Source of the DNA: Elioraea tepidiphila DSM 17972
GTDB lineage: Bacteria; Pseudomonadota; Alphaproteobacteria; Acetobacterales; Acetobacteraceae
DNA length: 39,535 nt
NCBI RefSeq assembly: GCF_000378465.1
Contig: NZ_KB899940.1
Location: forward strand, 1 to 39,535
Direction of reading: 5' to 3'
Part shown: positions 3,749-28,689 of the stretch, piece after piece
Layout: the number at the start of each line of letters is the position of its first letter
How positions within the stretch are numbered: the first letter of the stretch is position 1
The notes under the pieces: model-generated
Database searches by the model: none
The model's input: the letters and a program-made list of their open reading frames with translations, nothing else
Told to the model about the DNA's origin: nothing
Translations under genes and position numbers: made by a program

Positions 3749-3766
3749 GGGGCGCGCGAGAGGGCA

Positions 3767-5598: not shown

Positions 5599-7199
<1,601 letters not shown>

Positions 7200-7203
7200 G
7201 GCC

Positions 7204-9722: not shown

Positions 9723-9724
9723 CC

Positions 9725-13124: not shown

Positions 13125-14098
13125 GCCGGAAACGGACCCTTGTTGACCTGGTTGAGCGGCTTCTCGCCGCGGAGCACGCGCGCGACCTCCTCGGCCGCCT
13201 GACGCTGGAGATCGGCGATCGCCTCCTCGCTGTACCAGGCGGCGTGGTCGGTGAGCACCACGTTCTCGAGCGCGCGGAGCGGGCTGTCGGCGCGCAGCGG
13301 CTCCGGTGCGTAGACGTCGAGCCCGGCGGCGCGCAACCGCCCCTCCGCGAGCGCGGCGGCGAGCGCGGCCTCGTCCACCAGCGCGCCGCGCGCGGTGTTC
13401 ACCAGGATCGCGCTCGGCTTCACCTGGGCGAGGAAGGCGCGGCCGACGATGTGGTGGGTCGCGTTGGTGGCCGGTGCGTGCAGACTGATCACGTCCGACT
13501 CGCGGGCGATCCGGTCGAGGCTTGCCGGCTCCGTGCCCTCTGGCAGCGATTTCAGGAACGGGTCGTGCACGAGCACCCGCGCGAGGCCGAGGGCGAGGGC
13601 CTTGCGGTGCACGGCCGCGCCGATCCGGCCGTAGCCGATCAGCCCGAGTGTGCCGCCGCGCAGGCGGTAGACCTTGCGGTCCATGGGCACGCCCCAGGCG
13701 CCCGCCCGCACGCGCCGGTCGGCCTCGACGATGCGTCGGGCGGCGGCGAGCATCAGTCCGATCGCATGGTCGGAGACCTCGTCCGTCCCGAAGCCCGGGA
13801 CATTGCAGACGGGAATCCCGCGCGCGGCCGCGGCCGCACCGTCGATGTTCTCGTGGCCCACGCCGTAGCGCACGATCACCCTGGCCCTGGTCGTCGCGAT
13901 CGCCTGTGCATCCACCGGGCTCTCGCGCACCAGCACCGCGTCGGCCTCCGCCATGGCCGCGCGCACCGCCTCGGCATCGCCGCGACAGGGGCGCAGGACG
14001 AGCTCGGCGCCGAGCGGCGTCAGCACCGCCTTCTCGGCCTCGTAATGGGCGTATCCATCGTCGAGCACGACGACGCGTCGGGGGGTCTGTTGCGTCAT
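13121..14098 (-). CDS. NAD(P)-dependent D-2-hydroxyacid dehydrogenase
   Basis: A 325-residue oxidoreductase of the D-isomer-specific 2-hydroxyacid dehydrogenase family (phosphoglycerate dehydrogenase / CtBP-like group). It interconverts a 2-keto acid and a D-2-hydroxy acid. The substrate domain contains VRYGVGHENID (76-86). The nucleotide-binding loop is GLIGYGRIG (152-160), with D179 after the second strand suggesting NAD over NADP. The catalytic triad is R237 (NTARGALVDE), E266 (YAPEP) and H285 (TDHAAWYS). All are present. It is the first gene of the eda-kdgK unit. A candidate promoter lies upstream at 14127-14156. In this company it may reduce or oxidise a keto sugar acid, tartronate-type compound or pyruvate; the substrate is not determinable. 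Confidence 0.92.
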   Translation of the reverse strand: MTQQTPRRVVVLDDGYAHYEAEKAVLTPLGAELVLRPCRGDAEAVRAAMAEADAVLVRESPVDAQAIATTRARVIVRYGVGHENIDGAAAAARGIPVCNVPGFGTDEVSDHAIGLMLAAARRIVEADRRVRAGAWGVPMDRKVYRLRGGTLGLIGYGRIGAAVHRKALALGLARVLVHDPFLKSLPEGTEPASLDRIARESDVISLHAPATNATHHIVGRAFLAQVKPSAILVNTARGALVDEAALAAALAEGRLRAAGLDVYAPEPLRADSPLRALENVVLTDHAAWYSEEAIADLQRQAAEEVARVLRGEKPLNQVNKGPFPA

Positions 14099-15454: not shown

Positions 15455-17029
15455 ATGCTGAAGCGCCGATCCCTGCTTGCCGCCACGACAGCCGCGGCAC
15501 TCGCCCGCCCCGCGATCGCCCAGCGCGCGGCGGCGAGCGTGCTGCGGTTCATTCCGCATTCGAACCTCGCCGCGGTCGATCCGGTGGCGACCTCGGGCTA
15601 CATCGTCCGCAACTACGGGTTCATGGTCTACGACACGCTCTACGGCGTGGACACCGAGTTCCGGCCCAAGCCGCAGATGGTCGAAGGACACCAGCTCTCG
15701 GCCGACGGCAAGGTCTGGTCGTTCCGGCTGCGCGAGGGGTTGAGGTTCCACGACAACGCGCCCGTGCGCGGGGTGGACTGTGTCGCCTCGATCCGCCGCT
15801 GGGGCGCGCGGGACACGATGGGCCAGACCATCATGCGCATCGTCGATGACATCCGCGCGACCTCGGACCGCGACTTCGAGATCCGGCTCCAGCGCCCCTT
15901 CCCGCTGATGCTGGATGCGCTGGGCAAGCTCTCCACCCAGGCGCTGTTCGTCGTGCCCGAACGTGTCGGCACCTCGGATCCGATGGTGCCGAACACGGAG
16001 ACGGTCGGCTCGGGCCCGTTCCGGTTCGTCCGCGAGGAATGGGTGCCCGGCAGCCGCGCGGTGTTCGCGAAATTCGACGGCTACGTGCCGCGCAGCGAGC
16101 CGCCCGACGGGGCGGCGGGCGGCAAGCGGGTGCTGGTCGAGCGCGTCGAGTGGCACATCATCCCCGACCCTGCCACGGCCTCGGCGGCGCTGCAGACCGG
16201 CGAGGTCGACTGGTACGAACAGCCGGCCTTCGACCTGCTGCCCACGCTCGCGCGCAACCGCGACATCCGGATCCAGATCAGCGATCCGATCGGCTCGCTG
16301 GCGATGATCCGCTTCAACCACCTGCATCCGCCCTTCGACAAGCCGGCCGTGCGGCGCGCGGTGATGATGGCGGTGAACCAGACCGACTACCTCGCGGCGA
16401 TCACCGGCAACCCGCAATACGCGACCCTCTGCCGCAGCTTCCTCGTCTGCGGCACGCCGATCGGCAAGGACCAGGGCGAGGCCAAGATGCCGGCCGATCT
16501 CGCGGCCGCACGCCGGGCGCTCGCCGAGGCCGGCTACGCCGGCGAAACGGTGGTGATCATCAGCCCGACCGACATCCCGGCCACGCACACGATGGGTCAG
16601 GTCACGGCCGATCTGCTGCGCCGGCTCGGCATGACCGTCGATTTCGTCGCGACCGACTGGGGCACGGTGCTGGCGCGCCGGGCGAACCGCAACCCGCCCG
16701 ACCGCGGCGGCTGGAGCATCTTCCACACCTCCTGGGCCGGGCCGGATGTCGCGACGCCGGTGATCCACCTGCCGCTGCGCACACACGGCGCGCAGGCCTG
16801 GGCGGGCTGGCCGACCGATCCGGTGCTGGAAGAGCTGCGCGACAGGTTCATGGACACGGCGGATGCCGACCAGCAGGCGGCGCTGATCGCGCAGATCCAG
16901 GCGCGCGCGTTCGAGACGGTGCCGTTCGTGCCGCTTGGCCAGTTCCAGCAGCCGACCGCGTTCCGCCGCACCGTGCAGGGGATCGCGAAGGCGCCCGTGC
17001 CGTTCTTCTGGGGCGTGTCGAAGAGCTGA
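15455..17029 (+). CDS. orphan ABC substrate-binding protein, family 5 (peptide/opine type)
   Basis: A 524-residue periplasmic binding protein. The ATG at 15455 has GAGGAGG 7 bases upstream and gives a Tat-type signal (LKRRSLLAATTAAALARPAIAQ, compressed; twin Arg at 4-5, cleavage after AIAQ near 23). The long upstream extension in the same frame is not coding. Core motifs: VWSFRLREGLRFHDNAPV near 90, CVASIRRWG near 110, GSGPFRFVREEW near 190 and NHLHPPFDKPAVRRAVMMAV near 290. No permease or ATPase lies next to it; the neighbours are a divergent lipoprotein and a convergent allantoinase-like gene. It is clearly paralogous to the binding protein at 27100-28689 (shared YI.RN..MV.DTL, CVASIRRWG and NHLHPPFD), and presumably feeds transporter parts encoded elsewhere. 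Ligand unknown. Confidence 0.92.
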   Translation: MLKRRSLLAATTAAALARPAIAQRAAASVLRFIPHSNLAAVDPVATSGYIVRNYGFMVYDTLYGVDTEFRPKPQMVEGHQLSADGKVWSFRLREGLRFHDNAPVRGVDCVASIRRWGARDTMGQTIMRIVDDIRATSDRDFEIRLQRPFPLMLDALGKLSTQALFVVPERVGTSDPMVPNTETVGSGPFRFVREEWVPGSRAVFAKFDGYVPRSEPPDGAAGGKRVLVERVEWHIIPDPATASAALQTGEVDWYEQPAFDLLPTLARNRDIRIQISDPIGSLAMIRFNHLHPPFDKPAVRRAVMMAVNQTDYLAAITGNPQYATLCRSFLVCGTPIGKDQGEAKMPADLAAARRALAEAGYAGETVVIISPTDIPATHTMGQVTADLLRRLGMTVDFVATDWGTVLARRANRNPPDRGGWSIFHTSWAGPDVATPVIHLPLRTHGAQAWAGWPTDPVLEELRDRFMDTADADQQAALIAQIQARAFETVPFVPLGQFQQPTAFRRTVQGIAKAPVPFFWGVSKS

Positions 17030-17032
17030 GCG

Positions 17033-17965
17033 TCATCCCGCCGGGTGGGTCGCGCGCCAGTGCCGCGCGATCTCCACCCGGCGGCAGAGCCACACGCGGT
17101 CGTGCCGCTGCACGTGATCGAGAAAGCGGATCAGCCCGGCGAAGCGCCCCGGACGCCCAACCAGCCGGTTGTGCAGCCCGACGCTCATCATCTTCGGCCG
17201 CCCCTCCAGCCCCTCGCGGTAGAGCACGTCGAAGGCGTCGATCAGGTAGCGCGCGAAGTCCTCGCCGGTGTTGAAGCCCTGCGCAACCGCGAAGCGCATG
17301 TCGTTGTTGTCGAGCGTGTAGGGCACGATCAGTTCCGGCTTGCCGTTGACCCGCTCCCAGTAGGGCAGGTCGTCGGCGTAGGAGTCGGCGAAATAGAGGA
17401 AGCCGCCCTGCTCCGACAGAAGCCGCTTGGTGTTCGCCGAGAACCGCCCCGTGTACCAGCCGAGCGGGCGCGATCCCGTCACCACCGTCTGCAAGCGGAT
17501 GCTCTCGGCGATGTCCGCGCGCTCGGCATCCTCGGGCATGTCGCGGTACTCGATCCAGCGGCACGCATGCGAGGCGATCTCCCACTCGGCCTCCACCATC
17601 GCCGCGGCCGCCTCCGGGTTGCGCGCGAGCGCCATCGTCACCGCATAGACCGTGAGCGGAATGCCGCGCGAGGTGAACAGCCGGTGGATGCGCCAGAACC
17701 CGGCACGGCTGCCGTACTCGTACTGGCTCTCGACCGAGAGCGCGCGCTGGCCCACCAGCGGCTGCGTCCCCACCACCTCGGTCAGATACGCCTCCGAGGC
17801 CGCATCCCCGTGCAGGATGCAGTTCTCGCCGCCCTCCTCGTAGTTCAGCACGATCTGCACCGCGATCGCCGCACCGCCCGGCCATTGCGGATCCGGCGGG
17901 TTGCGGCCGTAGCCGACCATGTCGCGCGGATAGCCGGACGTGCGGGGATCGTAGGGATTGGTCAT
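17033..17965 (-). CDS. puuE: PuuE-type allantoinase / polysaccharide-deacetylase-fold amidase
   Basis: A 310-residue protein of the carbohydrate esterase 4 / NodB fold, matching the PuuE branch, whose characterised member hydrolyses allantoin to allantoate without a metal. Hallmarks: PRDMVGYGRNPPDPQWPGG (13-31), VLNYEEGGENCILHGD (39-54), ESQYEYGSRAGFWRIHRLF (79-97) and EIASHACRW with H133. The third position of the last motif carries Ala-Cys where most homologues I recall have Gly-Leu/Tyr. The ATG (17963-17965) overlaps the upstream pyridoxal kinase stop (ATGA). No urate oxidase or HIU hydrolase gene is present, so a broader ring-amide hydrolase role must stay open. The symbol reflects family, not proven function. 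Confidence 0.85.
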   Translation of the reverse strand: MTNPYDPRTSGYPRDMVGYGRNPPDPQWPGGAAIAVQIVLNYEEGGENCILHGDAASEAYLTEVVGTQPLVGQRALSVESQYEYGSRAGFWRIHRLFTSRGIPLTVYAVTMALARNPEAAAAMVEAEWEIASHACRWIEYRDMPEDAERADIAESIRLQTVVTGSRPLGWYTGRFSANTKRLLSEQGGFLYFADSYADDLPYWERVNGKPELIVPYTLDNNDMRFAVAQGFNTGEDFARYLIDAFDVLYREGLEGRPKMMSVGLHNRLVGRPGRFAGLIRFLDHVQRHDRVWLCRRVEIARHWRATHPAG

Positions 17966-18813
17966 GGCAAGCGCTCCGGGGTGAACAACCGCGAGGGTGC
18001 CACAAGTTCCGCCTGCGCGGCGATCAGCGCCATCTCCTCGCGTCCCGCCTTGACCGTCGCCGCGAGCACCCCATGGAGCGACGAGACCGCGCGGGCGAGA
18101 CACTCGGCGAGCGGCAGTCCCGCGAGCGTGTGGACCAGGAACAGCGCGGCGATCACGTCGCCGGTGCCGCGGCCGAGGATCGGCAGCAGCGGCGCACGCA
18201 CCCGGTACGCCCCCTCGCCATCGAGCGCCAGCACGTCGATCGCATCCGCGGGCGTATCCTCGACGTGCAGCGAGGTGACCAGGATGCGCTTCGGCCCGCG
18301 CGCCATCAGCGCGCGCGCCGCGTCGCGCAGCGCGCCGAGCGCGCGGGTCTGGCGCCCCGTGAGCCAGTCGAGCTCGAAATGGTTCGGCGTCAGGATGTCG
18401 GCCGCCGGTACGCAGCGATCGCGGAAGAACTCCGGGATGCCCGGACGGACGAACACGCCACGCCCGACATCGCCGATCACCGGATCGCAGCACCAGAGCG
18501 CACGCGGATTGGCGCGGATCAGGCGCGCATGGGCGTCGAGCACCGCCTCGCCGATCGCCGCGTCACCCATGTAGCCGGTGAGCAGCGCGTCCGTGTCGGC
18601 AAGCGCGCCGCGATCCTCCACGCCGGCGACGACGTCGCGCACGAGCGCCGGGTCCACCACCTGGCCGCGCCAGGCGCCATAGCCGGTGTGATTGGAGAAC
18701 AGCACCGTATGGACGGCGACCACCTCGGCGCCGAGGCGCTGCATGGGGAACACCGCCGCGGCGTTGCCGGCATGGCCGTGCGACACCCAGGACTGGATGG
18801 ACAGGATCTTCAC
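17962..18813 (-). CDS. pdxY: pyridoxal kinase
   Basis: A 283-residue ribokinase-fold enzyme phosphorylating pyridoxal (and related vitamers) in the PLP salvage pathway. Motifs: SIQSWVSHGHAGNAAAVFPM (5-24), the PdxY/PdxK N-terminal signature; VLFSNHTGYGAW (37-48); TGYMGD near 80; CDPVIGD near 110; LTPNHFELDWLTG near 142; and the ATP/anion-hole motif GRGTGDVIAALFLVH near 215 with catalytic Asp. The start is GTG (18811-18813). It lies 76 bases after the sugar-type binding-protein gene, separated by a strong hairpin, and is translationally coupled to the allantoinase. PLP supply would suit the PLP enzyme encoded three genes upstream. Confidence 0.93.
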   Translation of the reverse strand: MKILSIQSWVSHGHAGNAAAVFPMQRLGAEVVAVHTVLFSNHTGYGAWRGQVVDPALVRDVVAGVEDRGALADTDALLTGYMGDAAIGEAVLDAHARLIRANPRALWCCDPVIGDVGRGVFVRPGIPEFFRDRCVPAADILTPNHFELDWLTGRQTRALGALRDAARALMARGPKRILVTSLHVEDTPADAIDVLALDGEGAYRVRAPLLPILGRGTGDVIAALFLVHTLAGLPLAECLARAVSSLHGVLAATVKAGREEMALIAAQAELVAPSRLFTPERLP

Positions 18814-18830
18814 CAGGCACTCCCGAACAA

Positions 18831-18861
18831 GGACGAGCGGGGGGACGACGCTCGTCCCCCC
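18831..18861 (-). terminator. overlapping inverted repeats forming two alternative hairpins
   Basis: Two perfect stems share bases and cannot form together. Stem A is 9 bp: GGACGAGCG (18831-18839) with its complement at 18849-18857. Stem B is 8 bp: GGGGGGAC (18839-18846) with GTCCCCCC (18854-18861). They lie in the 75-base gap between the binding-protein stop and the pyridoxal kinase start. There is no T-run, so this may be a Rho-aided or partial terminator, an mRNA-processing stem, or a switch that sets pdxY-puuE expression apart from the upstream genes. Confidence 0.5.
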
Positions 18862-18888
18862 ACACCCCCCTGCACTACCGCCCCCGGG

Positions 18889-20166
18889 CTAGGCCAGCAA
18901 CGGCTGCACCCGGCGCACCAGATCGTCCATCGCCTGCTGCGGCGTCTTCATCCCGAGCACCGCCGCCTCGGCCTCCTCCTTGAAGAAGTCGCCGGCGCGC
19001 GCCGCCTGGTCGAAGGCGGGCATCGGCACGCGCGCCACCTTCAGCACCGCACGCTCGGCATCCGCATAGGGCACGCGGGCACGGATGCGGGGATCGTCAT
19101 AGGTGCTGTTGCGCACCGGGCCGTTGCCGTTCAGCGCCGCCTTCAGCGTGTTCTCGCGGCTGACCATCTCCTTCATCAGGCTCCACGCCCGCTCCTTGTC
19201 GCGCGAGGCGCGCGGGATCGCCATGCCCCAGAACTCCACCTTCGCCGGGGCCACCTCGAACTTGCCGGACAGCTCGCGGCTGACCGGAATCGTCGTGGTC
19301 TTGATCCTGCCGGGGAACTGCGACCGCTGCGGATCGTTGTAGATCTGGTTGCGCCCCATCGAGTTGATGATCAGCGCCGCGCGGCCGTTCTGCATCCAGA
19401 CATTCACCTCCTCGGTGCTGATGCCGGCGAAGTTGCGCGGGAAGGCACCGGCGACGAACAGTTCGCGCAGCAGGGTGATCGCATTCACCATCGGCTTCTC
19501 GTTCGCCACGCACCTCATGTCGGGCGTGATGAACTCGCCGTCCCAAGCACGCGCGATGTCGATCACGTTCGGATAGGTCACGCCCGGCAGCAGGAAGCCG
19601 ACCACCGGCGTGCCGTTGGCGCGCGTGTAGGTGCAGCGCTTCGCCACCTCCACCAGTTCCTCGATCGTGCGCGGCGGGCCGCTGATGCCGCGCTCGGCGA
19701 GGATCTCCTCGTTGTAGTGCAGCCCCGAGGAGGCATGCCGGAACGGCAGGCCGTAGAGCTTGCCGCCGATCGTCATGCCCTGGAGCATGCCGGGGAAGAT
19801 GTCGGCCACGTCTTCGACCGGGTCGCGCGCCATGTACTCGTCCAGCGGCTCGAACAGCGTCGTGATGCGCGGCACGGTCTGGGTGTTCAGCAGGAAGCCG
19901 ATATCGACGCTGGTCTCGCGCAGGCTCGCCTCGCGGAACAGCCGCTCCTGCAACGGCCCGGTGTCGAAGGTCACCCACTCGACGCCGATGCCGGTGCGCT
20001 GCGACCAGGCCTCGGTGATGTCGCCGCCCTGCGTGCCGGTGGCGACCGTGCGGTGCACGCGGTGCGCATAGATGTTGAGCCTCTGCGCCTGGGCCCGCGC
20101 GCCGCTTGCGGCAAGGCCCGCGGCAACGGCGGTGGCGCCGATCAGACGGCGACGGCTGATGGTCAT
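18889..20166 (-). CDS. ABC sugar-type substrate-binding protein (family 1, UgpB/MalE-like)
   Basis: A 425-residue periplasmic binding protein of the carbohydrate family 1. The ATG at 20166 was chosen because AGGGGAGAG lies about 6 bases upstream and the product then begins MTISRRRLIGATAV, a Tat signal with cleavage after ARAQ near 28; an in-frame GTG at 20184 would run through that ribosome-binding site. Mature features: ITEAWSQRTGIGVEWVTFDTGP near 50, NTQTVPRITTLFEPLDEYM near 92, LYGLPFRHASSGLHYNEEIL near 138 and VNVWMQNGRAALIINSMG near 255. The matching permeases are on the opposite strand at 24129-25830, within the same divergent cluster, so together they form one importer lacking only an ATPase here. 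The ligand could be a sugar, sugar acid or polyol-type compound. Confidence 0.9.
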   Translation of the reverse strand: MTISRRRLIGATAVAAGLAASGARAQAQRLNIYAHRVHRTVATGTQGGDITEAWSQRTGIGVEWVTFDTGPLQERLFREASLRETSVDIGFLLNTQTVPRITTLFEPLDEYMARDPVEDVADIFPGMLQGMTIGGKLYGLPFRHASSGLHYNEEILAERGISGPPRTIEELVEVAKRCTYTRANGTPVVGFLLPGVTYPNVIDIARAWDGEFITPDMRCVANEKPMVNAITLLRELFVAGAFPRNFAGISTEEVNVWMQNGRAALIINSMGRNQIYNDPQRSQFPGRIKTTTIPVSRELSGKFEVAPAKVEFWGMAIPRASRDKERAWSLMKEMVSRENTLKAALNGNGPVRNSTYDDPRIRARVPYADAERAVLKVARVPMPAFDQAARAGDFFKEEAEAAVLGMKTPQQAMDDLVRRVQPLLA

Positions 20167-20194
20167 GGCGTTCTCTCCCCTCACGGTTGCGTTG

Positions 20195-21202
20195 TCATGG
20201 GCCCGGATCGGTCGCGAGATGGGCGACGCAATCGCCGGGTGTCACCTGAGCGGGCACGCGCCGGCAGACGACGAGCCCCGCACGGGCGAAGTGTAGCGTC
20301 ACGGGGGGCCGGTCGGCCTCGTCGAGCGACAGGATGCGACCGGCGCACTGGCCCGCCGCCACGGTCTCGCCGAGCCCGATCTCAGGCACGAACAGCCCGC
20401 GCGTGGTCGCGAACAGGAAATGATCGCTGCCGGCCACGTGCATCAGCCGCGGTGTCGCTGCGGGCGGCCCGTCCAGCGCCAGCACGCCCGCATGATCGAG
20501 GAAACCATACAGCGCCCCCTTGGCCGCGGCGACCGAGGCGGGCGTCAGCGAACCGCCGCCGCCGATCTCGCAGGCGACATGCACCACGCCGCGCGCGAGG
20601 CCCGCCGCCGGCAGCGTGCGCGCATCCTGCGTCGCCTGCACCACGAGCGCCAGCGGAAGCCGCATCGCCCGCATCGCCGCCTCAAGCTTTGTGGCCAGCG
20701 CGGGGTCGTCCGTTGCGCGCACCATCGCGCAGGGCAGGTACTCCATCGAGCTGCCGCCGGAGTGGAAGTCGCATGCCCAGGCGACGCGCGGCAGCAGCGC
20801 GCTGTCGATGAAATGCGCGAGCATCGCGGTCGGCCCGCCATTCGGGTCGCCCGGGAACAGCCGGTTGAGATTGCCGCCGTCGAGCGGCGAGTCGCGCCGG
20901 CCGGCCAGCACCGCCGGCAGGTTCAGCGCCGGCAGCACGATCAGCCGGCCGCGCAGGTGCGCGGGATCGAGCTCGCGGATCAGGTCGCGCAGTACTGCCT
21001 GGCCTTCGTACTCGTCGCCGTGATTGCCGGCGGTGAGCAGGACGGACGGTCCCTCGCCCCCGTCCAGCACGGCAATCGGTACCGGGATCACGCCGTAGCC
21101 GCTCTCGTGGCGCGACTGCGGAATGCGGAGCCAGCCGATGCGCGTGCCGGGCGTGCGAGCGTCGAGATCGAGGTCGCTGTGGATGCGGCTCGGCGCGCTC
21201 AT
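20195..21202 (-). CDS. DoeB-like succinylglutamate desuccinylase/aspartoacylase family deacylase
   Basis: A 335-residue zinc carboxypeptidase-fold (M14-related) deacylase. Such enzymes remove acetyl, succinyl or similar groups from N-acyl amino acids. Zinc ligands H61 and E64 are in TAGNHGDEYEGQ, and H147 is in CDFHSGG. The RIPQSR....YGVIPVPI opening (26-43), LPALNLPAVLAGRRDSPLDG (90-109), GNLNRLFPGDP and GGGGSLTP (near 220) closely resemble DoeB/EutE, the N-acetyl-diaminobutyrate deacetylase of ectoine breakdown. No ectoine hydrolase or aminotransferase lies nearby, so that exact role is not assigned. The C-terminal part is a barrel-like domain. The ATG (21200-21202) overlaps the upstream PLP-enzyme stop (ATGA). 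The preferred start excludes a long unsupported upstream extension. Confidence 0.88.
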   Translation of the reverse strand: MSAPSRIHSDLDLDARTPGTRIGWLRIPQSRHESGYGVIPVPIAVLDGGEGPSVLLTAGNHGDEYEGQAVLRDLIRELDPAHLRGRLIVLPALNLPAVLAGRRDSPLDGGNLNRLFPGDPNGGPTAMLAHFIDSALLPRVAWACDFHSGGSSMEYLPCAMVRATDDPALATKLEAAMRAMRLPLALVVQATQDARTLPAAGLARGVVHVACEIGGGGSLTPASVAAAKGALYGFLDHAGVLALDGPPAATPRLMHVAGSDHFLFATTRGLFVPEIGLGETVAAGQCAGRILSLDEADRPPVTLHFARAGLVVCRRVPAQVTPGDCVAHLATDPGP

Positions 21203-22203
21203 GCCGGGGCGACCTCGCGCGTTGCCGCCGCGGCCACCGCGTCGGCGGCGGCGAACAGTCCTGGCAGGCCGCCCGAGTGCAGGAACACCACCGGTCCCTC
21301 CGGCAACACGCCCTTGTGCAGCGCGCCGATCAGCCCCGCCATGGCCTTGCCGGTATAGGCGGGATCGAGCACCACGCCTTCGCTGCGCGCCACGCGCAGC
21401 AGTGCCGAGAGCGACGCCTCGCTCGGGATCGCGTAGCCGGAACCGATCCAGGCATCGTCCACCGCGAGCTTCAGGGTCGGCGGCAGCGCCCAGCCCGCGC
21501 GGTCGGCGGCTCGGCGCACGACATCGGCGATCCACGGCCCAAGCCGATCCGCCGGCTGCTGCACGCTGACGGCGCGCACCTGGCAGCGCCGGCCGAGTCG
21601 CGCCAGGCCGAGCGCAAGGCCGGCCGCGGTCAGCCCGGAGCCGGCCGCGACGACGATCGTGCCGGGCTCGATTCCGGCCGCGCGCCAGTCGGCGTCGAGC
21701 TCCTCGGCCGCAACCGCCCATGCCTGTGCGGCGAGCGGCGCGCTGACGCCGGGCAGGTGGATCACGTAAGGACGGCGCCCACGCGCGCGCAGCGAGCGCG
21801 CGGCCTCATCGAGCGCGGCCGCGAGCGACGGGTCCCACGGATCGGCGGACTCGACGAACCGGATCTCGGCACCGAACACCGCATCGAGCAGCAGGTTACC
21901 CTGACTCGGCGGCGCCGGCCCGCGCAGCACCAGCGTGCAGGCGAGCCCGAGCTTCGCCGCCGAGCCGGCGAGCGCGCGGCAGAAATTCGACTGCGCGCCT
22001 GCCGTGGTCAGCACGGCATCGGCGCCCTCGGCCAGCGCTTCGCCCAGCAGCCATTCGATCTGGCGGATCTTGTTGCCGCCGAGCGCGGCACCGGCGAGGT
22101 CCTCCCGCTTGAACCAGATCTCGCGGCCGATGGCGGCGGAGAGCCGTTGCACCTTCTCGAACGGTGTCGGCCAGTGCCCGAGCACAACCCGGCCCGGTGT
22201 CAT
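21199..22203 (-). CDS. PLP-dependent D-cysteine desulfhydrase / ACC deaminase family enzyme
   Basis: A 334-residue fold-type II PLP enzyme. Relatives include D-cysteine desulfhydrase, 1-aminocyclopropane-1-carboxylate deaminase and L-cysteate sulfo-lyase, most of which release ammonia and a 2-keto acid from an amino acid. The PLP lysine is K45 in LGGNKIRQIEW. TTAGAQSNFCRA (66-77) is the substrate carboxylate/PLP ring loop. AAGSGLTAAGLALGL near 187 is the phosphate-binding loop. The C-terminal LHSGGLPGLF is the pyridine-nitrogen region. An WFKREDLAG segment (30-38) is typical of the family. The ATG overlaps the regulator's stop (ATGA) and its own stop overlaps the deacylase start. Coupling to an N-deacylase suggests its amino acid substrate may arrive N-acylated; the reaction itself cannot be fixed from sequence. 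Confidence 0.9.
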   Translation of the reverse strand: MTPGRVVLGHWPTPFEKVQRLSAAIGREIWFKREDLAGAALGGNKIRQIEWLLGEALAEGADAVLTTAGAQSNFCRALAGSAAKLGLACTLVLRGPAPPSQGNLLLDAVFGAEIRFVESADPWDPSLAAALDEAARSLRARGRRPYVIHLPGVSAPLAAQAWAVAAEELDADWRAAGIEPGTIVVAAGSGLTAAGLALGLARLGRRCQVRAVSVQQPADRLGPWIADVVRRAADRAGWALPPTLKLAVDDAWIGSGYAIPSEASLSALLRVARSEGVVLDPAYTGKAMAGLIGALHKGVLPEGPVVFLHSGGLPGLFAAADAVAAAATREVAPA

Positions 22204-22943
22204 GTGGGCCGCCGTGCCGGGGCGATGGCCTCGATCAGGTCGCGCGAGGCATCGAAATGCGCGTGCAGGGCCAGCCGCGCCGCGTCGGGATCATGCTTGC
22301 GGATCGCCGCGAGGATGCGCTCATGCCGCGCGAGCGTGCGCCGCGCGTCGCGCAGTTCGCGCCGATCCTGCATCAGCCGCATCACGTGCTTCGCCGCCGG
22401 CGCCAGCGCCTCCATCAGGAACAGCATGAGCGCGTTGCCGGCCGCGCGCGCGAGCGCGAGATGGAAGGCGAGATCGGCCTCCACCCACGGATCGACCGTG
22501 TCGCGCACCGACCGCATGCTCGCCACCAGCGCCGCCAGCGTCTCGATATCCGCCGCGGTCGCGCGCACCGCCGCCAGTGCGCCGATCTCGGTCTCGATCG
22601 CGCGGCGGAGTTCGATCGCCTCACGCAATCCCTCGGGACGCGAGCGGATCGCGCGATCGAAGAAGGTCGCGAGCGGCGCGGCCGAGGGCGGCAGCACCGT
22701 CGTCGGTCGGCCTTGTTGGATCAGCACCGCGCCCATCGCGGCGAGCTGCCCGAGCGCCTCGCGCACCACCGTCTTGCTGACGCCGAAGCGCTGCGCGAGC
22801 GCCGCCTCGGGCGGCAGTTCCTCGCCCGGCGCGAGGCGGCCGGCCGCGATCCCTTCCAGCAACTGCCCGACCACGTGATCGGACAGGCGTTGGCGCGGTG
22901 CAGCCACGAGATCGAGCGCGTCGGCCATCGCCCTCTTGCTCAC
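22200..22943 (-). CDS. GntR-family transcriptional regulator, FadR/FCD type
   Basis: A 247-residue regulator. Residues about 15-85 form the GntR winged helix (LSDHVVGQLLEGIAAGRLAPGEELPPE; ALAQRFGVSKTVVREALGQL, split here; MGAVLIQQGRPTTV). Residues about 100-235 form the all-helical FCD ligand domain, with its metal/ligand residues visible in EADLAFHLALARAAGN and ARHERILAAIRKHDPDAARL followed by H in LHAHF. FCD regulators usually bind small organic acids and repress the adjacent catabolic genes. The start could be GTG at 22943 or ATG at 22928; neither has an ideally spaced ribosome-binding site, and the longer form is given. It is the first gene of the minus unit and lies beside a clear inverted repeat, so it probably controls both divergent units and itself. 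Confidence 0.92.
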   Translation of the reverse strand: MSKRAMADALDLVAAPRQRLSDHVVGQLLEGIAAGRLAPGEELPPEAALAQRFGVSKTVVREALGQLAAMGAVLIQQGRPTTVLPPSAAPLATFFDRAIRSRPEGLREAIELRRAIETEIGALAAVRATAADIETLAALVASMRSVRDTVDPWVEADLAFHLALARAAGNALMLFLMEALAPAAKHVMRLMQDRRELRDARRTLARHERILAAIRKHDPDAARLALHAHFDASRDLIEAIAPARRPT

Positions 22944-22985
22944 TGTTCTGCTATCTGCTTATCATAACAGCAGAACAGACGTCAA
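22936..22985. promoter_or_regulatory. face-to-face overlapping promoters with an inverted-repeat operator (22944-22977)
   Basis: A perfect 9-bp inverted repeat, TGTTCTGCT (22944-22952) and AGCAGAACA (22969-22977), is separated by 16 bases. Inside it is a second short palindrome, TTAT-C-ATAA (22959-22967). Plus-strand promoter candidate: TTGCTC (22936-22941), 18 bases, TATCAT (22960-22965), serving the gene at 23001. Minus-strand candidate: TTGACG (22985-22980), 16 bases, GATAAG (22963-22958), serving the regulator gene. Both -10 elements fall on the inner palindrome, so a protein bound to the repeat would cover both promoters. The AT-rich patch stands out in an otherwise GC-rich window. The binding protein is presumably the adjacent GntR regulator. 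Confidence 0.7.
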
Positions 22986-23000
22986 TTTGCGGAGGGAACG

Positions 23001-24119
23001 GTGCGCATCGTCGAGGTGAAGGCCCACCCGCTCGCCGCGCCGATCGCGCCCGACATCCAGAAGACCTCCGCCGGCAACTGCCCGACGATCTCGATCCTGG
23101 TGGTGGAGGTCGTCACCGACACCGGCATCACCGGCTGGGGCGAGGGGCTGTTGCGTGCTTCCCCCCGAGCGGCCGCGACGCTGGTGGAGCAGACGCTGAC
23201 GCCGCTGCTGCTCGGCGCCGACCCCTTCGCGGTCGAGGCGCTCTGGCCGACGCTCGCGCGCGCGACGACCGGGCGCTCCGGCGGGTTCCTGATCGAGACG
23301 GTGGCGGCGATCGACATCGCGCTGTGGGACATCATGGGCAAGGCGCTCGGCCAGCCGGTGCATCGCCTGCTCGGCAGTTGCGGGCGCGAGCGCGTCACCG
23401 CCTATGCGTCGTCGATCTCCTGGGGGCCGCTCGCGATCGCCGAGGCGCAGGCCGAGGAGGCGGTCGGGCGCGGGTTCCCGTTGATCAAGGTCAAGATCGG
23501 CGCGCCGGTCGAGGCCGCGATCGAGCGCATACGGGTCCTGACGCGGCTGGTGAACGGGCGCGCGAAGCTCTGCGCCGACGCGAACTGGGTGTTCGACTAT
23601 GACGACGCCGTGCGGCTCGCGCGCGCGCTGCTCGACCTCGACGTCCATTGGCTCGAGGAGCCGATCGTGCCGGAGGACCTCGACGGTTATCGACGCCTGC
23701 GTGCAGCCGTGCCGATCCGACTCGCCGCCGGCGAAAGCGAGTTCACCGCCTGGGGCGCGCGCGACCTGATCGCGAGCCGCGCGGTCGGCGTCATCCAGCC
23801 CGATGTCGCGCGTTCGGGCGGCATCACCGAGACGCGGCGCATCGCCACGCTGGCGCACTGCTTCCACCTCGCCTATGCGCCGCACATGGGCTTCTCCGGC
23901 GCGATCTGCGCCGCCGCCTCGCTGCATCTCGCCGCGGCGATGCCGAACTTCGCGACCTTCGAGTGCATGATCTTCCCCAATCCCCTGCGCGAGGAGCTCG
24001 CGACCACGCGTCCGGGCGATCCGTCGCTGCTGCAGGATGGCGCTGTGCCGGTGCCGGAGGGACCCGGGCTCGGCATCGAGATCGACCGCACTGCGCTCGC
24101 TCGCCTGACGGTGTCCTGA
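23001..24119 (+). CDS. mandelate racemase/muconate lactonizing enzyme family protein (enolase superfamily)
   Basis: A 372-residue enolase-superfamily enzyme that abstracts the alpha-proton of a carboxylate via an enolate held on magnesium. The N-terminal capping domain covers about 1-120. In the barrel: KxK base K163-K165 (LIKVKIG), metal ligands D193 (CADANW), E219 (LEEP) and E245 (GESE), the Asp of the His-Asp dyad D268 (QPDVARSGG), base H295 (YAPHMGF) and E321 (FECM). This pattern is that of the mandelate-racemase subgroup, whose members are mostly acid-sugar dehydratases or racemases; it lacks the second Lys base of dipeptide epimerases. The GTG at 23001 has GGAGGG 4 bases before it and no better ATG. 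It heads the plus unit with the importer permeases. Substrate unassigned. Confidence 0.92.
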   Translation: MRIVEVKAHPLAAPIAPDIQKTSAGNCPTISILVVEVVTDTGITGWGEGLLRASPRAAATLVEQTLTPLLLGADPFAVEALWPTLARATTGRSGGFLIETVAAIDIALWDIMGKALGQPVHRLLGSCGRERVTAYASSISWGPLAIAEAQAEEAVGRGFPLIKVKIGAPVEAAIERIRVLTRLVNGRAKLCADANWVFDYDDAVRLARALLDLDVHWLEEPIVPEDLDGYRRLRAAVPIRLAAGESEFTAWGARDLIASRAVGVIQPDVARSGGITETRRIATLAHCFHLAYAPHMGFSGAICAAASLHLAAAMPNFATFECMIFPNPLREELATTRPGDPSLLQDGAVPVPEGPGLGIEIDRTALARLTVS

Positions 24120-24128
24120 CGACGCATC

Positions 24129-24998
24129 ATGCGCGCCCGGCCCATCCACTACCTGCTGATCTCGCCGGCACAGCTGCTGCTCGTGGTGACGATCTTCGTG
24201 CCTTCGCTCTGGGTCGGCTGGCTCAGCCTGCACGAGGCCTCGTTCGGCACCGAGGCACGCTATGTCGGCTTCGCCAACTACGCCAAACTGGCGGCCGATC
24301 CCTATTTCTGGCGCGCCTTCCTCAACACCGTCGTGATCGTCAACGTGATCGTCTATGCCGAGCTGCTGCTCGGCCTCGGCATCGCGCTCCTGTTCGCCGG
24401 CGGCCTGCCTTTCCCGCGGCTGATGCTCGCGATCGTGCTGGCGCCCTATGCGATCAGCGAAGTGGTCGTCGTGATCATGTGGAAGACCATGTTCGAGCCG
24501 CAGGTGGGGGTGATGCAGCTGCTGCTCGCCGCCCTCGGGATTCCCGGGCTCGAATGGGCGGTCAATCCCGTGCACGGGCTGACGCTGATCGTGCTGCTCG
24601 CGGTGTGGCACCACCTCCCCTTCACCTTCCTGCTGCTCTACGCCGCGCTGCTCGGTGTGCCGAAGGAGCTGCATGAGGCCGCGAAGGTTGATGGCGCGGG
24701 CGCCTGGCGCGCGTTCCTGCACGTCACCCTGCCCTCGATCATGCCGGCGATCCTGGTCGCCTTGCTGTTCCGCTACGTCTTCGCGTTCCGCCTGTTCTCC
24801 GAGCCCTGGCTGCTGACCCAGGGCGGGCCTGCGCGCATGACCGAGGTGATGGCCGTCTATCTCTACAAGGCCGCGTTCCGCTATCGCGAGCTTGGCCTTG
24901 CCGCGGCGACGGGCTGGGCCATGCTGCTGCTGTCGCTCGCGATCTCGGTGCCGTATCTGCGCGCCGTGCGGCGCAGGATGTTCGCCGATGCGACCTAG
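24129..24998 (+). CDS. ABC sugar-type transporter permease (MalF/UgpA-like)
   Basis: A 289-residue inner-membrane permease with about six hydrophobic segments, beginning YLLISPAQLLLVVTIFVPSLWVGWL (split near residue 20) and ending in LLLSLAISVPYL. The conserved docking loop that contacts the ATPase is LHEAAKVDGAGAWRAFLHV near residue 180, followed by TLPSIMPAILVALLF, typical of the MalF/UgpA family. NYAKLAADPYFWRAFLNT near 50 is the usual first periplasmic region. The ATG lies 9 bases after the preceding stop. It should pair with the following permease and the binding protein at 18889-20166. Confidence 0.93.
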   Translation: MRARPIHYLLISPAQLLLVVTIFVPSLWVGWLSLHEASFGTEARYVGFANYAKLAADPYFWRAFLNTVVIVNVIVYAELLLGLGIALLFAGGLPFPRLMLAIVLAPYAISEVVVVIMWKTMFEPQVGVMQLLLAALGIPGLEWAVNPVHGLTLIVLLAVWHHLPFTFLLLYAALLGVPKELHEAAKVDGAGAWRAFLHVTLPSIMPAILVALLFRYVFAFRLFSEPWLLTQGGPARMTEVMAVYLYKAAFRYRELGLAAATGWAMLLLSLAISVPYLRAVRRRMFADAT

Positions 24999-25830
24999 GC
25001 GCTGGCGGCCGCTCCTGCGGCGCACCCTGCGCGGGCTCGCGTTTCTCGCCGTCGCGGTGTGGTCGCTGTTCCCGATCCTGTTCGTGGTCCACGCCTCGTT
25101 CCGTCCGCCGGCGACCATCTTCGCGGTTCCGCCGCAATTCATGGTCCCACCGACCACGCAGAATTACATCGAGCTTGCGCGGCTCTGGCCCGACTTCTTC
25201 GGCTCGCTGATCAACAGCCTGATCATCACCCTTGGCGCCACCGCGCTCACCGTGATCGCGAGCGCGCTCGCGGGCTGGGTCTATGCGCGCCGGCGCGGCA
25301 GGCTGCTGACCACCAGCGCGTTCTTCATGGTGCTGGTGCGGATGTTCCCGCCGATCGTCATCACCCTGCCGCTGTTCCCGGCGGTGAACGCGGCCGGGCT
25401 CTCGGACACGCATCTCGTGTTAGTGCTGCTCTACGCGGCGTTCTTCGTCTCGCTCGGAACCTGGATCATGAAAGCCTTCGTCGATCAAGTGCCGCGCGAG
25501 TTCGAGGAGGCGGCCGAGGTGGACGGTGCCTCGCTGGTCCAGATGTTGCGCCACGTGATCGTGCCGCTGGTGATCCCGGGCATGATCGCGGCGGCCGTGT
25601 TCATCTTCATCTTCGCCTGGAACGAGTTCCTGTTCGCCTTCGTGTTCACCACCACACGGGCGCGCACCGCGCCGCTGATCATCAGCGAGATGCTGGGCTC
25701 GGTGACCGGTGTGGACTGGGGACCCGTGTTCGCGGCGGCAACCATCCAGCTTGTGCCGGTGCTGCTGTTCGTCGTCCTGCTGCAACGCCACCTGGTCGCC
25801 GGCCTCACCGCGGGCGGCGTCAAGGGATAG
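24988..25830 (+). CDS. ABC sugar-type transporter permease (MalG/UgpE-like)
   Basis: A 280-residue inner-membrane permease, second half of the sugar-type channel. The ATG at 24988 overlaps the end of the first permease by 11 bases and gives the short basic N-terminus MRPRRWRPLLRRTLRG before membrane segment 1; an ATG at 24892 in the same frame would add a Cys/Arg-rich stretch with no family counterpart. The docking loop is EEAAEVDGASLVQMLRHVI near residue 172, followed by VPLVIPGMIAAAVF and FIFAWNEFLFAF, diagnostic of MalG-type proteins. No ATPase gene follows; the next genes encode proteins of unknown function. Confidence 0.93.
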   Translation: MRPRRWRPLLRRTLRGLAFLAVAVWSLFPILFVVHASFRPPATIFAVPPQFMVPPTTQNYIELARLWPDFFGSLINSLIITLGATALTVIASALAGWVYARRRGRLLTTSAFFMVLVRMFPPIVITLPLFPAVNAAGLSDTHLVLVLLYAAFFVSLGTWIMKAFVDQVPREFEEAAEVDGASLVQMLRHVIVPLVIPGMIAAAVFIFIFAWNEFLFAFVFTTTRARTAPLIISEMLGSVTGVDWGPVFAAATIQLVPVLLFVVLLQRHLVAGLTAGGVKG

Positions 25831-25846
25831 AGAGGGAAGGAACCCC

Positions 25847-26719
25847 GTGACCGTCACCTTGCATGATCTGCGGCTCGCCGATCCGCGCCTCAGCCGCTTC
25901 GATCCGATGCGGCGCATCATCTGCTTCGACGACTTCGACCGCGGCTATTGCGGCTGGACCCAGCTGGTCGGCAACTACGAGCACACGCTCGACTCCATGA
26001 CCGCCTCCTATGCCGCCCACACCCATCCGCAGCTCGCCACCGTCAGCCACTGGGATGCCGGCACGCATGGCGGCGTGGACGGCACCTACGCGCTGAAGAT
26101 CGCGACCCGCCCGAAGCGCGGCATCCGCTCGACCGCGATCAAGCGCCTGACCTTCCGCGAGGCCGGGCCGATCCGGCTCGAGTTCTACTTCACCTTCAAG
26201 CCCGAGGCGACCGAGCTCCGCCTCTCCGAGACGGACGTGCGCTCGGTCGGGTTCCTCTACGATCTCCAGACCGGATACGAGCAGAACGGGCTGCGCGTGA
26301 TGCCGCATATCCGCTTCCTCAACGCCGAGAACGGCAAACACATCCAGCGCTGGCAGTACAAGGACGAAACAACACCGGTGCGCGAGATCGGCACCGAAGG
26401 CAAGACCGCGACGCACGACCATCTCGCGCCGTTCGGCTGGAAGGACATTCCGGGCGGCGAGCAGAAGCTCTGCTACAACGAGATCCCGACCAAGATCAAC
26501 TGGCACTACATGCGCTTCGATTTCGATCTCGCCACGATGCGCATGATCGAGATGCAGTGCAACGACCGACGCTACGACCTCGCCGGCATTCCCAACATCG
26601 TCATCCCGGCGATGCGGAATCTCTGGTGCATGCTGAACCTCGTCTTCTTCGCCGAGGCGGAAACGGACAAGCGCGTGTTCCTCTACATCGACAGCGTCTG
26701 CCTCTCGGGGGAATTCTGA
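25847..26719 (+). CDS. uncharacterised conserved protein (DUF6772-like)
   Basis: A 290-residue protein without signal peptide or membrane segment. It begins after a GTG at 25847 preceded by GAGGGAAGGAA. The composition (many aromatic residues, alternating hydrophobic strands such as PIRLEFYFTFKPEATELRL and NLVFFAEAETDKRVFLYID, compressed) suggests a beta-sandwich, perhaps a carbohydrate-binding or lectin-like fold. Distinct motifs are CFDDFDRGYCGWTQLVGNYE (24-43), SVGFLYDLQTGYEQNG near 130 and NWHYMRFDFDLATMRM near 220. From memory it resembles the family NCBI lists as DUF6772, unverified. Cotranscription with the importer permeases and the enolase-superfamily enzyme suggests an enzyme or binding protein for the same substrate. 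I do not know its function. Confidence 0.72.
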   Translation: MTVTLHDLRLADPRLSRFDPMRRIICFDDFDRGYCGWTQLVGNYEHTLDSMTASYAAHTHPQLATVSHWDAGTHGGVDGTYALKIATRPKRGIRSTAIKRLTFREAGPIRLEFYFTFKPEATELRLSETDVRSVGFLYDLQTGYEQNGLRVMPHIRFLNAENGKHIQRWQYKDETTPVREIGTEGKTATHDHLAPFGWKDIPGGEQKLCYNEIPTKINWHYMRFDFDLATMRMIEMQCNDRRYDLAGIPNIVIPAMRNLWCMLNLVFFAEAETDKRVFLYIDSVCLSGEF

Positions 26720-26722
26720 GCC

Positions 26723-27061
26723 ATGCTGCGCGAGAGCCACACCGCGATTATCGCCCGCAACGAGCGCTGGCAGGGCGAGGCGGCGACCGAGCCATTCGAG
26801 GCCGGCTGGGCGTCGGAGGCGATCTTCTTCCTGCGCGCGCTGGCCGCCGAGGGGCCGACCGGCGACGGGCGCGCGTACGTGCAGATCTCACCCGACGGCA
26901 TGCGCTGGGTCGATGAGGGGACGACCGCGCAGGTGCCGGACGCGGCGGAGGGTATCGCCGTGCTGCGTGTGGCGCATTTCGGCTCGTGGCTGCGACTGCG
27001 CGTGACGCTCCCGGCGGGCGCGACGCTGACGCCTGTGGTCGCGCTCTCGCTCAAGGCGTAG
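26723..27061 (+). CDS. hypothetical protein, last gene of the enolase-superfamily/importer operon
   Basis: A 112-residue soluble protein that I do not recognise. The ATG is 3 bases after the previous stop. The sequence alternates hydrophobic and polar residues (AIFFLRALAAEG, AYVQISPDGMRWVDEG, IAVLRVAHFGSWLRLRVTL), as in a compact beta-sandwich of jelly-roll or discoidin type. There is no Cys, signal peptide or obvious catalytic motif. Tight spacing to the DUF6772-like gene suggests the two act together, possibly as two small beta domains. The stop codon's last base begins a perfect 13-bp inverted repeat that ends the operon. Confidence 0.65.
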   Translation: MLRESHTAIIARNERWQGEAATEPFEAGWASEAIFFLRALAAEGPTGDGRAYVQISPDGMRWVDEGTTAQVPDAAEGIAVLRVAHFGSWLRLRVTLPAGATLTPVVALSLKA

Positions 27062-27099: not shown

Positions 27100-28689
27100 T
27101 CAGGTCTTCTCGATGTTCCAGTAGAACAGCGCTGGCCCGGGGATCAGCCCCTTCAGCCAGTTCCGGTAGGCGATGACGCTGCGGTACTGACCCAGCGGGA
27201 TCGAGCTCACATAGTCGACGTGGAACCGTTCAAGCTCCACCCGGATCTGTTGCCGCTTGGCCGCGTCGGTCTCCAGCGCCCACGCGCTCGTCAGCTCGGG
27301 CACACGGGCATTGCACGGCCAGCCGAACCAGGCATCGTCGCAGTGGCGCGTGAACACGTTCAAAAGGGGATTCGCCACACCTGTCAGCGTCGCGTTGGTG
27401 ACGAAGATGTTCCAGCCGCCCTGGTCCGGTGCGGCCCGCGAGGCGCGCCGCTGCACCAGCGCGCTCCAGTCCATCGCGATCAGGTCGACATTCACGCCGA
27501 TCTGCTTCAGCGTATCAGCAGCCATCAGCGCGGCCGGATGCAGGATCGCGTTGTCGGCCGGGTCCATCACCACCACTCGTCGGCCGTCATAGCCCGCCTC
27601 TCGCAGCAGAGCGCGCGCCTTGTCGAGATCGCGCGCTGGCCATCCAAGGGCCGCGAACCGATCGTCCTCCTCCGCGCCGCAGCCGAAGATCGCCGCGCAC
27701 TCGCGCGAGGGCGTATGCCGCCCCACCACGGCGGCCATGAAGTCCTTCTGGTTCACCGCAATCTGCAGCGCCTTGCGCGCCTGCTGGTTGTCGAAGGGCG
27801 GATGCAGATGGTTGATCACCATGAACAGTTGGTAGCCAAGCGGATCGTTGGGCGCGACCGTGACATCGCGTGACCGCTCAAGCAGGGGGACAAGATCATG
27901 GGCGACCGTCTCGAGAAGATCGAGCTCGCCCGTCAGCAGCCCGTTCGACGCTGTGGCCGCATCGGGCGTGTAGACCGACTCGACCCGATCGACCTTGACA
28001 ACCTTGCCGCCCGCCGCTTGGCTCGCCGGCTCGCTGCGCGGCACGTAGCCTTCGAACCTCTCATAGACGACCCGCGCACCCGGAATCCACTCCTCGCGCT
28101 TGAACCGGAACGGACCCGAGCCGATCACCTCGGTGATCGCGGTGTTCGCATCCGTGCGCGCGAGCCGCTCGGGCATCATGAACGGGACGTTGCTGTCGAT
28201 CTTGCCGAGCGCATCGAGCACGAAGCCCACCGCCCGCTTCAGCTTGAGCTGGAAGGTGCGGTCATCGCGCGCCTCGATGCTGTCGGTCACGGCCATCAGC
28301 GCGCGGCCCATGCCGTCGCGCTGGCCCCAGCGGCGTATCGAGGCGACGCAGTCGGCCGCGCGCACGGGCGTGTTGTCGTGCCAGCGCAGGCCGTCGCGCA
28401 ACTGGAACGTCCAGGTGAGTCCGTCCCCGCTCGCCTCGTGGCCGCCGACCATCTGCGGCTGCACCTTGTTCTCGGCATCGAGGGCGAACAGCGTGTCCCA
28501 CACCATGTAGGCGTGGTTGCGGGTGATGTAGGCGGTGGTCCAGATCGGATCCAGCGCGCGCAGATCGCCGATCGGCACCGAGCGGATCACCCGCCGCCGG
28601 TCCTGCGCCAGGGCCGCGCGTGTGGCGGAGGACAGCAATGCCGGTGTCGCCAGGCCCGCCTGCACCATGGTTCGACGCTTCAGCGTCAT
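27100..28689 (-). CDS. orphan ABC substrate-binding protein, family 5 (peptide/opine type)
   Basis: A 529-residue periplasmic binding protein. The ATG (28687-28689) has GGGAGG about 6 bases upstream. The N-terminus TLKRRTMVQAGLATPALLSS is a Tat-type signal, cleaved probably after ALAQ near 29. Core motifs: LTWTFQLRDGLRWHDNTPV near 95, CVASIRRWGQRDGMG near 115, GSGPFRFKREEWIPGARVVY near 195 and INHLHPPFDNQQARKALQIAV near 295. It is a close paralogue of the protein at 15455-17029 and, like it, has no permease or ATPase beside it. On the minus strand it follows the amidohydrolase gene by 76 bases; a weak promoter-like pair (TTCACA 28758-28753, CATAAC 28737-28732) lies in that gap. It may import a substrate for the neighbouring amidohydrolases. 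Confidence 0.92.
   Translation of the reverse strand: MTLKRRTMVQAGLATPALLSSATRAALAQDRRRVIRSVPIGDLRALDPIWTTAYITRNHAYMVWDTLFALDAENKVQPQMVGGHEASGDGLTWTFQLRDGLRWHDNTPVRAADCVASIRRWGQRDGMGRALMAVTDSIEARDDRTFQLKLKRAVGFVLDALGKIDSNVPFMMPERLARTDANTAITEVIGSGPFRFKREEWIPGARVVYERFEGYVPRSEPASQAAGGKVVKVDRVESVYTPDAATASNGLLTGELDLLETVAHDLVPLLERSRDVTVAPNDPLGYQLFMVINHLHPPFDNQQARKALQIAVNQKDFMAAVVGRHTPSRECAAIFGCGAEEDDRFAALGWPARDLDKARALLREAGYDGRRVVVMDPADNAILHPAALMAADTLKQIGVNVDLIAMDWSALVQRRASRAAPDQGGWNIFVTNATLTGVANPLLNVFTRHCDDAWFGWPCNARVPELTSAWALETDAAKRQQIRVELERFHVDYVSSIPLGQYRSVIAYRNWLKGLIPGPALFYWNIEKT

Follow-up and report, generated by a model that had tools for sequence, protein, structure and literature searches.

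Sugar-acid catabolism via 2-keto-3-deoxy acids is a known type of pathway, in which hexuronates and aldonates are routed through 2-keto-3-deoxygluconate (KDG) by UxuA and UxuB, sugar-acid dehydratases of the mandelate racemase family, KdgK and Eda. Here we describe a gene cassette at 18889-27061 of a 39,535-nt stretch of DNA from Elioraea tepidiphila DSM 17972 (the window; contig NZ_KB899940.1, examined over 17033-27061), which may well be a horizontally shared set for the uptake and catabolism of an unusual sugar acid, in which two routes run in parallel towards a 2-keto-3-deoxy acid, a reading that we put forward tentatively. The cassette resembles the hexuronate and aldonate routes in having an enzyme with the residues of the mandelate racemase subgroup (MR) and, in a few relatives, UxuA, PfkB-like and Eda-family genes; it differs from them in that MR scores under every named dehydratase model, and in the addition of two proteins, DUF6772 and the 112-residue ORF112. 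An amino branch of this type of pathway has been described for oxidised chitin (GlcNAc1A) in Pseudoalteromonas, where, in the sections of the report on which we draw, the ong pathway proceeds by deacylation, by deamination of the amino-sugar acid to KDG by a pyridoxal phosphate (PLP) enzyme and then by KdgK to KDG-6-P (PMC9537276); OngB has a D-aminoacylase-like fold, according to the part of a second report available to us (PMC12017989).

Every gene of 17033-27061 is open at the coordinates that an earlier, sequence-only reading of the window had assigned, and family scans agree with the gene families it had named, apart from two corrections: the cassette is without an ATPase gene, and the supposedly PuuE-like amidase scores above the cut-off of the PuuE model itself (TIGR03212, 513.9 against 424.6 bits). 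The minus-strand unit carries, in order, a GntR/FCD regulator, a PLP enzyme (PALP), a deacylase of the AstE/AspA fold and a CUT1-type binding protein, followed by PdxY (NF004398, 352 bits, above the cut-off of 292) and PuuE. The divergent plus-strand unit consists of MR, two CUT1 permeases, DUF6772 and ORF112. Gene overlaps at 22200/22203 and 21199/21202 suggest translational coupling.

The gene set is real, beyond a chance neighbourhood, and the cassette travels between distant bacteria. A scan of the DUF6772 protein against 84,980 species genomes, sensitive to close relatives only, yielded 34 loci, most of them labelled Alphaproteobacteria, some Betaproteobacteria and one an Anaerolineae bin, with Chelatococcus and Bosea strains among the hosts. 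Two more from genome sampling bring the loci from other genomes to 36; L075 (DUF6772 35% identical, with an ORF112 relative adjoining) and the short fragment L073 were left uncounted. Presence or absence was scored per locus at thresholds that we set, gene starts in the relatives are those of a dicodon caller rather than of the annotation, and contig ends cut several loci, including L005, L006, L007, L015, L024, L031 and L034; alignment A1 was made without the incomplete proteins of the last two. ORF112 is found in 35 of the 36 loci, the sole miss (L034) ending within DUF6772, and the two genes lie side by side in all 35 loci where the sequence continues; by the starts so called, the DUF6772 stop overlaps the ORF112 start by one base in 20 of 33 loci, and in the others the two are no more than 14 bases apart. 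The importer follows, with each permease in 29 loci, the binding protein in 27 (relatives of at least 43% identity) and a UgpC-type ATPase in seven (in one of them 9.6 kb off), then MR (26/36), the FCD regulator (22/36) and an SDR gene (16/36). PALP is present in nine loci and the deacylase in six. The sequence-only reading had held that the genes would be mere neighbours if they did not co-occur elsewhere; in the neighbourhood comparison that it proposed, DUF6772, ORF112, MR, the regulator, the permeases and the binding protein do recur together, and PALP and the deacylase do so more weakly. Its inclusion of PdxY and PuuE did not hold, as each is kept in one of the 36 loci (PuuE in L001, the closest relative), and L002, the other Elioraea locus, has flagellar-looking genes (by eye) in their place. 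The conserved set is thus 18889-27061, and PdxY/PuuE (17033-18813) look like neighbours.

Identities of the cassette proteins correlate pairwise (Mantel r from 0.41 to 0.98 over 15 pairs, with at most 1 of 999 permutations reaching the observed value), with r of 0.72 for DUF6772 and ORF112, 0.76 for DUF6772 and MR and 0.98 for MR and the regulator, none of which was reached in 999 permutations, in keeping with co-inheritance. In L022, L025, L027 and L084 the importer has been swapped for another CUT1 set (permeases 29-32% identical), and all four retain the regulator, MR, DUF6772 and ORF112 despite the swap; L033 has likewise distant permeases and no match to the regulator. DUF6772 is rare, occurring in 3 of 398 genomes of a phylum sample, in 3 of 385 of a class sample and in 7 of 249 genomes of the family, the window's own genome being included each time and two of the seven being a distant match and a fragment match. 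Within the genus it is found in two of the five listed genomes and absent from three, a patchiness to be expected of a cassette that is mobile or readily lost. In the class sample, where MR and PALP were scored on up to five candidates per genome, PALP relatives above 50% identity (51-100%) occur in the same three DUF6772 genomes, the next best being 46%, and 63 other genomes have relatives at or below that value. The same three hold the MR relatives above 50% (56-100%; next best 41%), and three other genomes have relatives at 40-41%. Without the window's genome, PALP above 50% is found in 2/2 DUF6772 genomes and 0/382 others, and the counts for MR are the same. Three neighbourhoods of MR or PALP relatives without DUF6772 gave no hint of a substrate.

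Presence patterns over the 36 loci make DUF6772 and ORF112 the constant module and the deacylase/PLP pair an optional one. MR and PALP occur together in six loci, MR alone in 20, PALP alone in three (L004, L006, whose upstream sequence ends after 1.3 kb, and L030, an 8.4-kb contig) and neither in seven, one of which, L003, comes from a genome that has both on other short contigs. All six loci with the deacylase carry PALP, which in the DUF6772 tree is found in the window's part (except L009 and L010) and in the scattered rows L020, L026 and L030. Because MR and the deacylase/PLP module separate in this way, a single linear pathway is unlikely, and the order proposed by the sequence-only reading, alpha-proton chemistry followed by deacylation and PLP-dependent elimination, is not supported; parallel branches fit the locus patterns better. 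The same split argues against salvage of N-acyl amino acids in line, in which MR would racemise an N-acyl-L-amino acid, the deacylase would release the amino acid and the PLP enzyme would eliminate from the D-amino acid. The families of the deacylase and the PLP enzyme do act on amino acids, and MR weakly matches DgcA (57.6 bits), but its highest scores go to sugar-acid dehydratases, the importer is of the CUT1 type, and UxuA, Eda, RraA and SMP-30 companions are present in a few loci, so that we consider N-acyl salvage distinctly improbable.

MR (23001-24119, plus strand; MR_MLE_C 213.3 bits) has K163xK165, D193, E219, E245, D268, H295 and E321 invariant in all 23 aligned rows, which we take to be the KxK motif, the Asp-Glu-Glu metal ligands and the Asp-His dyad of the mandelate racemase subgroup, and by these residues it belongs to that subgroup of the enolase superfamily. 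It is a probable sugar-acid dehydratase: its best NCBIfam scores are to such enzymes, all under cut-off (D-galactonate dehydratase NF010624, 206.7 against 311 bits), and the solved structures closest to it (E about 1e-60) carry the name putative mandelate racemase. The deacylase (20195-21202, minus strand) matches the AstE/AspA catalytic domain PF24827 (124.1 bits against a gathering cut-off of 25), with H61, E64, N111, L112, R114, H147 and E212 invariant in 8/8 rows; H61, E64 and H147 are presumably the residues of the metal-site motif. With DoeB/EutE of ectoine degradation it shares the family and the conserved motifs, yet it fails the DoeB equivalog cut-off (TIGR02994, 247.8 against 402.7 bits), and no DoeA-type hydrolase or aminotransferase is found among the cassette genes. 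PALP (21199-22203, minus strand; Pfam PALP 163.6 bits) is a fold-type II enzyme on a branch of its own in the D-cysteine desulfhydrase/ACC deaminase family. K45, the serine S72 of a QSN motif and Y283 are invariant in 11/11 rows and correspond, presumably, to the PLP lysine and to the serine and tyrosine kept in D-cysteine desulfhydrase, ACC deaminase, CuyA and XcbE, whereas no listed NCBIfam cut-off is reached (D-cysteine desulfhydrase TIGR01275, 250.1 against 289.4 bits). D-glucosaminate has its alpha carbon in the D configuration and would therefore suit a PLP family that acts on D-amino acids.

The proposed amino branch would follow the same deacylase and PLP deaminase logic as the ong pathway, with an unrelated deacylase, OngB being D-aminoacylase-like and the window's enzyme having PF24827 as its only Pfam match. 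As far as the ong reports available to us go, import there is by an SSS symporter in place of a CUT1 system, and their accessible sections do not mention MR, DUF6772 or ORF112 (PMC9537276, PMC12017989).

DUF6772 (25847-26719, plus strand; PF20562, 434 bits against a gathering cut-off of 27, scanned from 25838) is predicted to be a ConA-like jelly roll. A model built from 33 rows has a mean pLDDT of 87.6, low at residues 69-76, and Foldseek matched it to ConA-like proteins, the top one being the PL36 alginate lyase Aly36B (TM 0.40/0.46). There are 62 invariant columns in the 33 rows, many of them Arg, Lys, His, Glu or Tyr, and 39 persist in the distant L075 relative (35-39% identical), including K99, R100, E112, R132, R150, R156, Q170, H192, Y210, E212 and K216. 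According to a review, the catalytic tyrosine is replaced in Aly36B by a lysine (PMC8618178). DUF6772 resembles the lyases of the Aly36B type in predicted fold type and in its invariant polar residues; it differs from them in a TM of about 0.4, in that no sequence kinship was found, in lacking an export signal by eye and in having a constant small partner. That partner, ORF112 (26723-27061, plus strand), is modelled as a small beta-sandwich (mean pLDDT 96.1) with generic, small lectin-like structural matches, the top one being the exported phage protein XepA; likewise it shows no export signal by eye. DUF6385 is its only Pfam match, below threshold (21.9 against 26.8 bits), and this weak match recurs in 34/34 ORF112 rows (E up to 5 allowed, best 6.7e-6). 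Literature searches for DUF6772 or DUF6385 found no paper.

The two proteins may form a two-part enzyme. Since they are constant while both branches vary, their place would be ahead of both branches or at the product that these share, and the predicted fold favours an upstream cleavage step. Alternatively, the locus might be an ordinary aldonate or uronate operon, with DUF6772 and ORF112 as non-catalytic carbohydrate-binding or chaperone-like accessories and with PALP and the deacylase as neighbours. The ConA-like and lectin-like matches of the pair are what one would expect of such accessories, as is the presence of PALP and the deacylase in a minority of loci, but a non-catalytic role sits poorly with 62 invariant, largely polar columns, 39 of them shared with the L075 protein, and the link of close PALP relatives to DUF6772 genomes (3/3 against 0/382 others) does not look like that of a neighbour; we place this explanation on the unlikely side. 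A distant version of the pair in L075 (2526-8695; DUF6772 35% and ORF112 41% identical) has a gene for an FAD-dependent oxidoreductase between the pair and a cassette-type binding protein with permeases.

The binding protein (18889-20166, minus strand; Pfam SBP_bac_1 64.2 bits) has an N-terminal export signal, twin-arginine-like by eye, and among solved structures it is closest to sugar binders, for example the trehalose/maltose-binding protein 1eu8. Permease A (24129-24998, plus strand; PF00528 56.9 bits) is UgpA/GlcT-like and permease B (24988-25830, plus strand; PF00528 64.8 bits, scanned from 25015) GlcU/MalG-like, both under the cut-offs. Elsewhere in the genome there are 18 ATPase matches (E up to 1e-60; 150 of 176 candidates scored), the best of which is 67% identical to the ATPase beside ORF112 in L009. 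This best match, of the UgpC type, lies in a second cluster of the window's genome (L092, 1921-7523), with an MR-like enzyme and two permeases recognised by eye, and could serve both importers. A second binding protein of 43-50% identity stands beside an SDR gene in L003, L008, L011, L012, L021, L028 and L032 and may have a second ligand.

The regulator (22200-22943, minus strand; FCD 87.4 and GntR 70.3 bits) starts at a GTG at 22943 or, likelier, at an ATG at 22928. Between the two units lies a probable common operator, TCTGCTTATCATAACAGCAGA (22954-22974), predicted from intergenic conservation; L001 and L002 have the identical sequence, and L009 and L010 retain part of it. The shared operator of the sequence-only reading has a candidate in this site; the longer, outer inverted repeat (22943-22952 / 22969-22978) was rejected as operator, its left arm being altered in L001 and both arms lost in L002. 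Spacers from the regulator gene to the next gene were compared in 20 loci and the window (n=21). CTTATC, on either strand, occurs in 14/21 spacers; over 100 shuffles that preserve base content, the best 6-mer reached 8.1 spacers on average and 11 at most. The best 7-mers (12 and 11 spacers; shuffle maximum 7) and 8-mer (8; shuffle maximum 5) likewise exceed the shuffles, although these counts are not probabilities, given the kinship of the loci and shuffles that preserve nothing beyond base content. At least one of CTTATC, CTTAGC and CCTATC is present in all 21 regulator-bearing spacers, a three-word pattern without a computed chance level, and several spacers contain an imperfect palindrome, for example ACCTATCnGATAGGT, the counterpart of which in the window is 22954-22974. 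The spacer motifs support a single operator for both divergent units, with numbers weakened by related sequences and simple shuffles, and the two units are probably co-regulated. An RpiR/SIS-type regulator substitutes in L004 (by Pfam), in L008 (by clustering) and on the L103 contig (by eye).

Links to an exit route are few and none is conserved, yet all point one way, towards sugar-acid breakdown. In L034, UxuA (Pfam 373.5 bits), an Eda-family aldolase and a PfkB-like kinase are encoded next to the binding-protein gene and on its strand; the kinase was assigned by eye and from its 27% identity with the KDG-kinase-like protein of the window. L084 has UxuA above cut-off, a fructuronate-reductase-like gene below cut-off and an SMP-30/gluconolactonase-family gene directly after ORF112, and RraA-family genes adjoin and are in line with permease or binding-protein genes in L020, L028 and L029. 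The window itself has KDG-kinase-like, Eda and 2-hydroxyacid dehydrogenase genes (11578-14098), which are separated from the gene for the binding protein by about 5 to 6 kb; Eda passes its cut-off (TIGR01182, 162.4 against 156.05 bits), and the genome holds one other Eda-family copy. The KDG-kinase-like PfkB protein and Eda (11578-13124, minus strand) are a possible exit route, if they belong with the cassette.

Several points weigh against a sugar-acid cassette with two branches. We infer the substrate and the reactions from sequence, and few cassettes have exit-route genes nearby, UxuA and SMP-30 being present in 2/36 loci each, RraA in 3/36 and PfkB and Eda of the L034 type in 1/36 each. 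The window's own KDG-kinase-like protein (11578-12507) fails NF040938 (178 against 400 bits), and its gene and that of the hydroxyacid dehydrogenase recur in 0/36 loci and Eda in 1/36, so that the three may be unrelated neighbours. MR is absent from L004, L016 and L018 despite 9.5-10 kb of upstream sequence, and from the short contig L030, L033 has an MR relative at 27% only, and three of the nine PALP loci (L020, L026 and L032) are without the DoeB-like deacylase, L026 having another AstE/AspA-family protein directly after ORF112. For DUF6772, a TM near 0.4 indicates fold type only, a profile search gave two matches to solved proteins (best E 0.02), too weak to accept kinship, and the widest match to another Pfam family, PHB_acc (9/33 rows, best E 0.00064), was taken as chance. 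Finally, the best PALP scores, all sub-cut-off, include the coenzyme M enzyme XcbE in first place (266.2 bits) and the sulfo-lyase CuyA in third (248.7 bits). Together with SmoF, one of the solved proteins to which the binding protein is related (E 2.7e-8), this raises a pathway for a sulfonated compound, with PALP as a CuyA-like sulfo-lyase and a sulfo-sugar or N-acyl-cysteate as the imported compound; the scores are far under the cut-off (450), PALP is missing from most cassettes, and no sulfite-handling gene was noticed beside the loci, without a search aimed at such genes, and we regard such a pathway as highly improbable.

In the proposed sugar-acid cassette, the binding protein and the two permeases would import a sugar acid or its conjugate, energized by an ATPase encoded elsewhere, and DUF6772 and ORF112 would act on it in the cytoplasm as one two-part enzyme, most likely by a cleavage of the lyase or hydrolase type. 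MR would dehydrate a 2-hydroxy acid to a 2-keto-3-deoxy acid; in cassettes of the window's type, a product of that kind would also arise from the 2-acylamino analogue, which the deacylase would deacylate and PALP would then convert in an ammonia-releasing elimination. This product might leave by a KDG-kinase/Eda, RraA or SDR route, differing between hosts, and the FCD regulator would sense an acid of the pathway and control both units. It is possible, though rather doubtful, that DUF6772/ORF112 specifically represents an undescribed class of ConA-fold enzyme, cytoplasmic and made of two subunits, which opens a sugar-acid conjugate, the halves of which reach 2-keto-3-deoxy acids by parallel water-releasing (MR) and ammonia-releasing (AstE-family deacylase and D-cysteine-desulfhydrase-family PLP enzyme) eliminations. 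The analysis gives a functional context to PF20562, a Pfam domain of unknown function, and to its small partner, and it points to a class of substrates that can be tested. If true, the reading would reveal a novel means of opening or processing sugar acids, supply amino-sugar acids with a second enzyme pair unrelated to the first, and show two chemically parallel eliminations that converge upon one kind of intermediate. Literature searches, on which any claim of novelty here rests, found no description of the constant DUF6772/ORF112 pair or of this version of the amino branch, and, as the sequence-only reading had supposed, library and literature searches gave no described match to the whole set.

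Other genes adjoin the cassettes. In a Bosea locus (L012, 11308-13843) a SelA-like PLP protein (by Pfam) and a RidA-like protein (by eye) do so, which are probably a separate amino-acid cluster. In the window, family-5-type binding proteins lie on either side of the cassette (15455-17029 and 27100-28689), both oriented towards it and neither with a permease gene recognised beside it. Further off, 2141-11194 contains a dipeptide-type binding protein, a YejF/GsiA-like ATPase, an ArgE/DapE-family deacylase, an MlrC/M81 protein and an allantoate-amidohydrolase-family protein that passes its subfamily cut-off (NF006769, 568.3 against 452 bits); this is likely a ureide or peptide cluster, of which PuuE may be a part.

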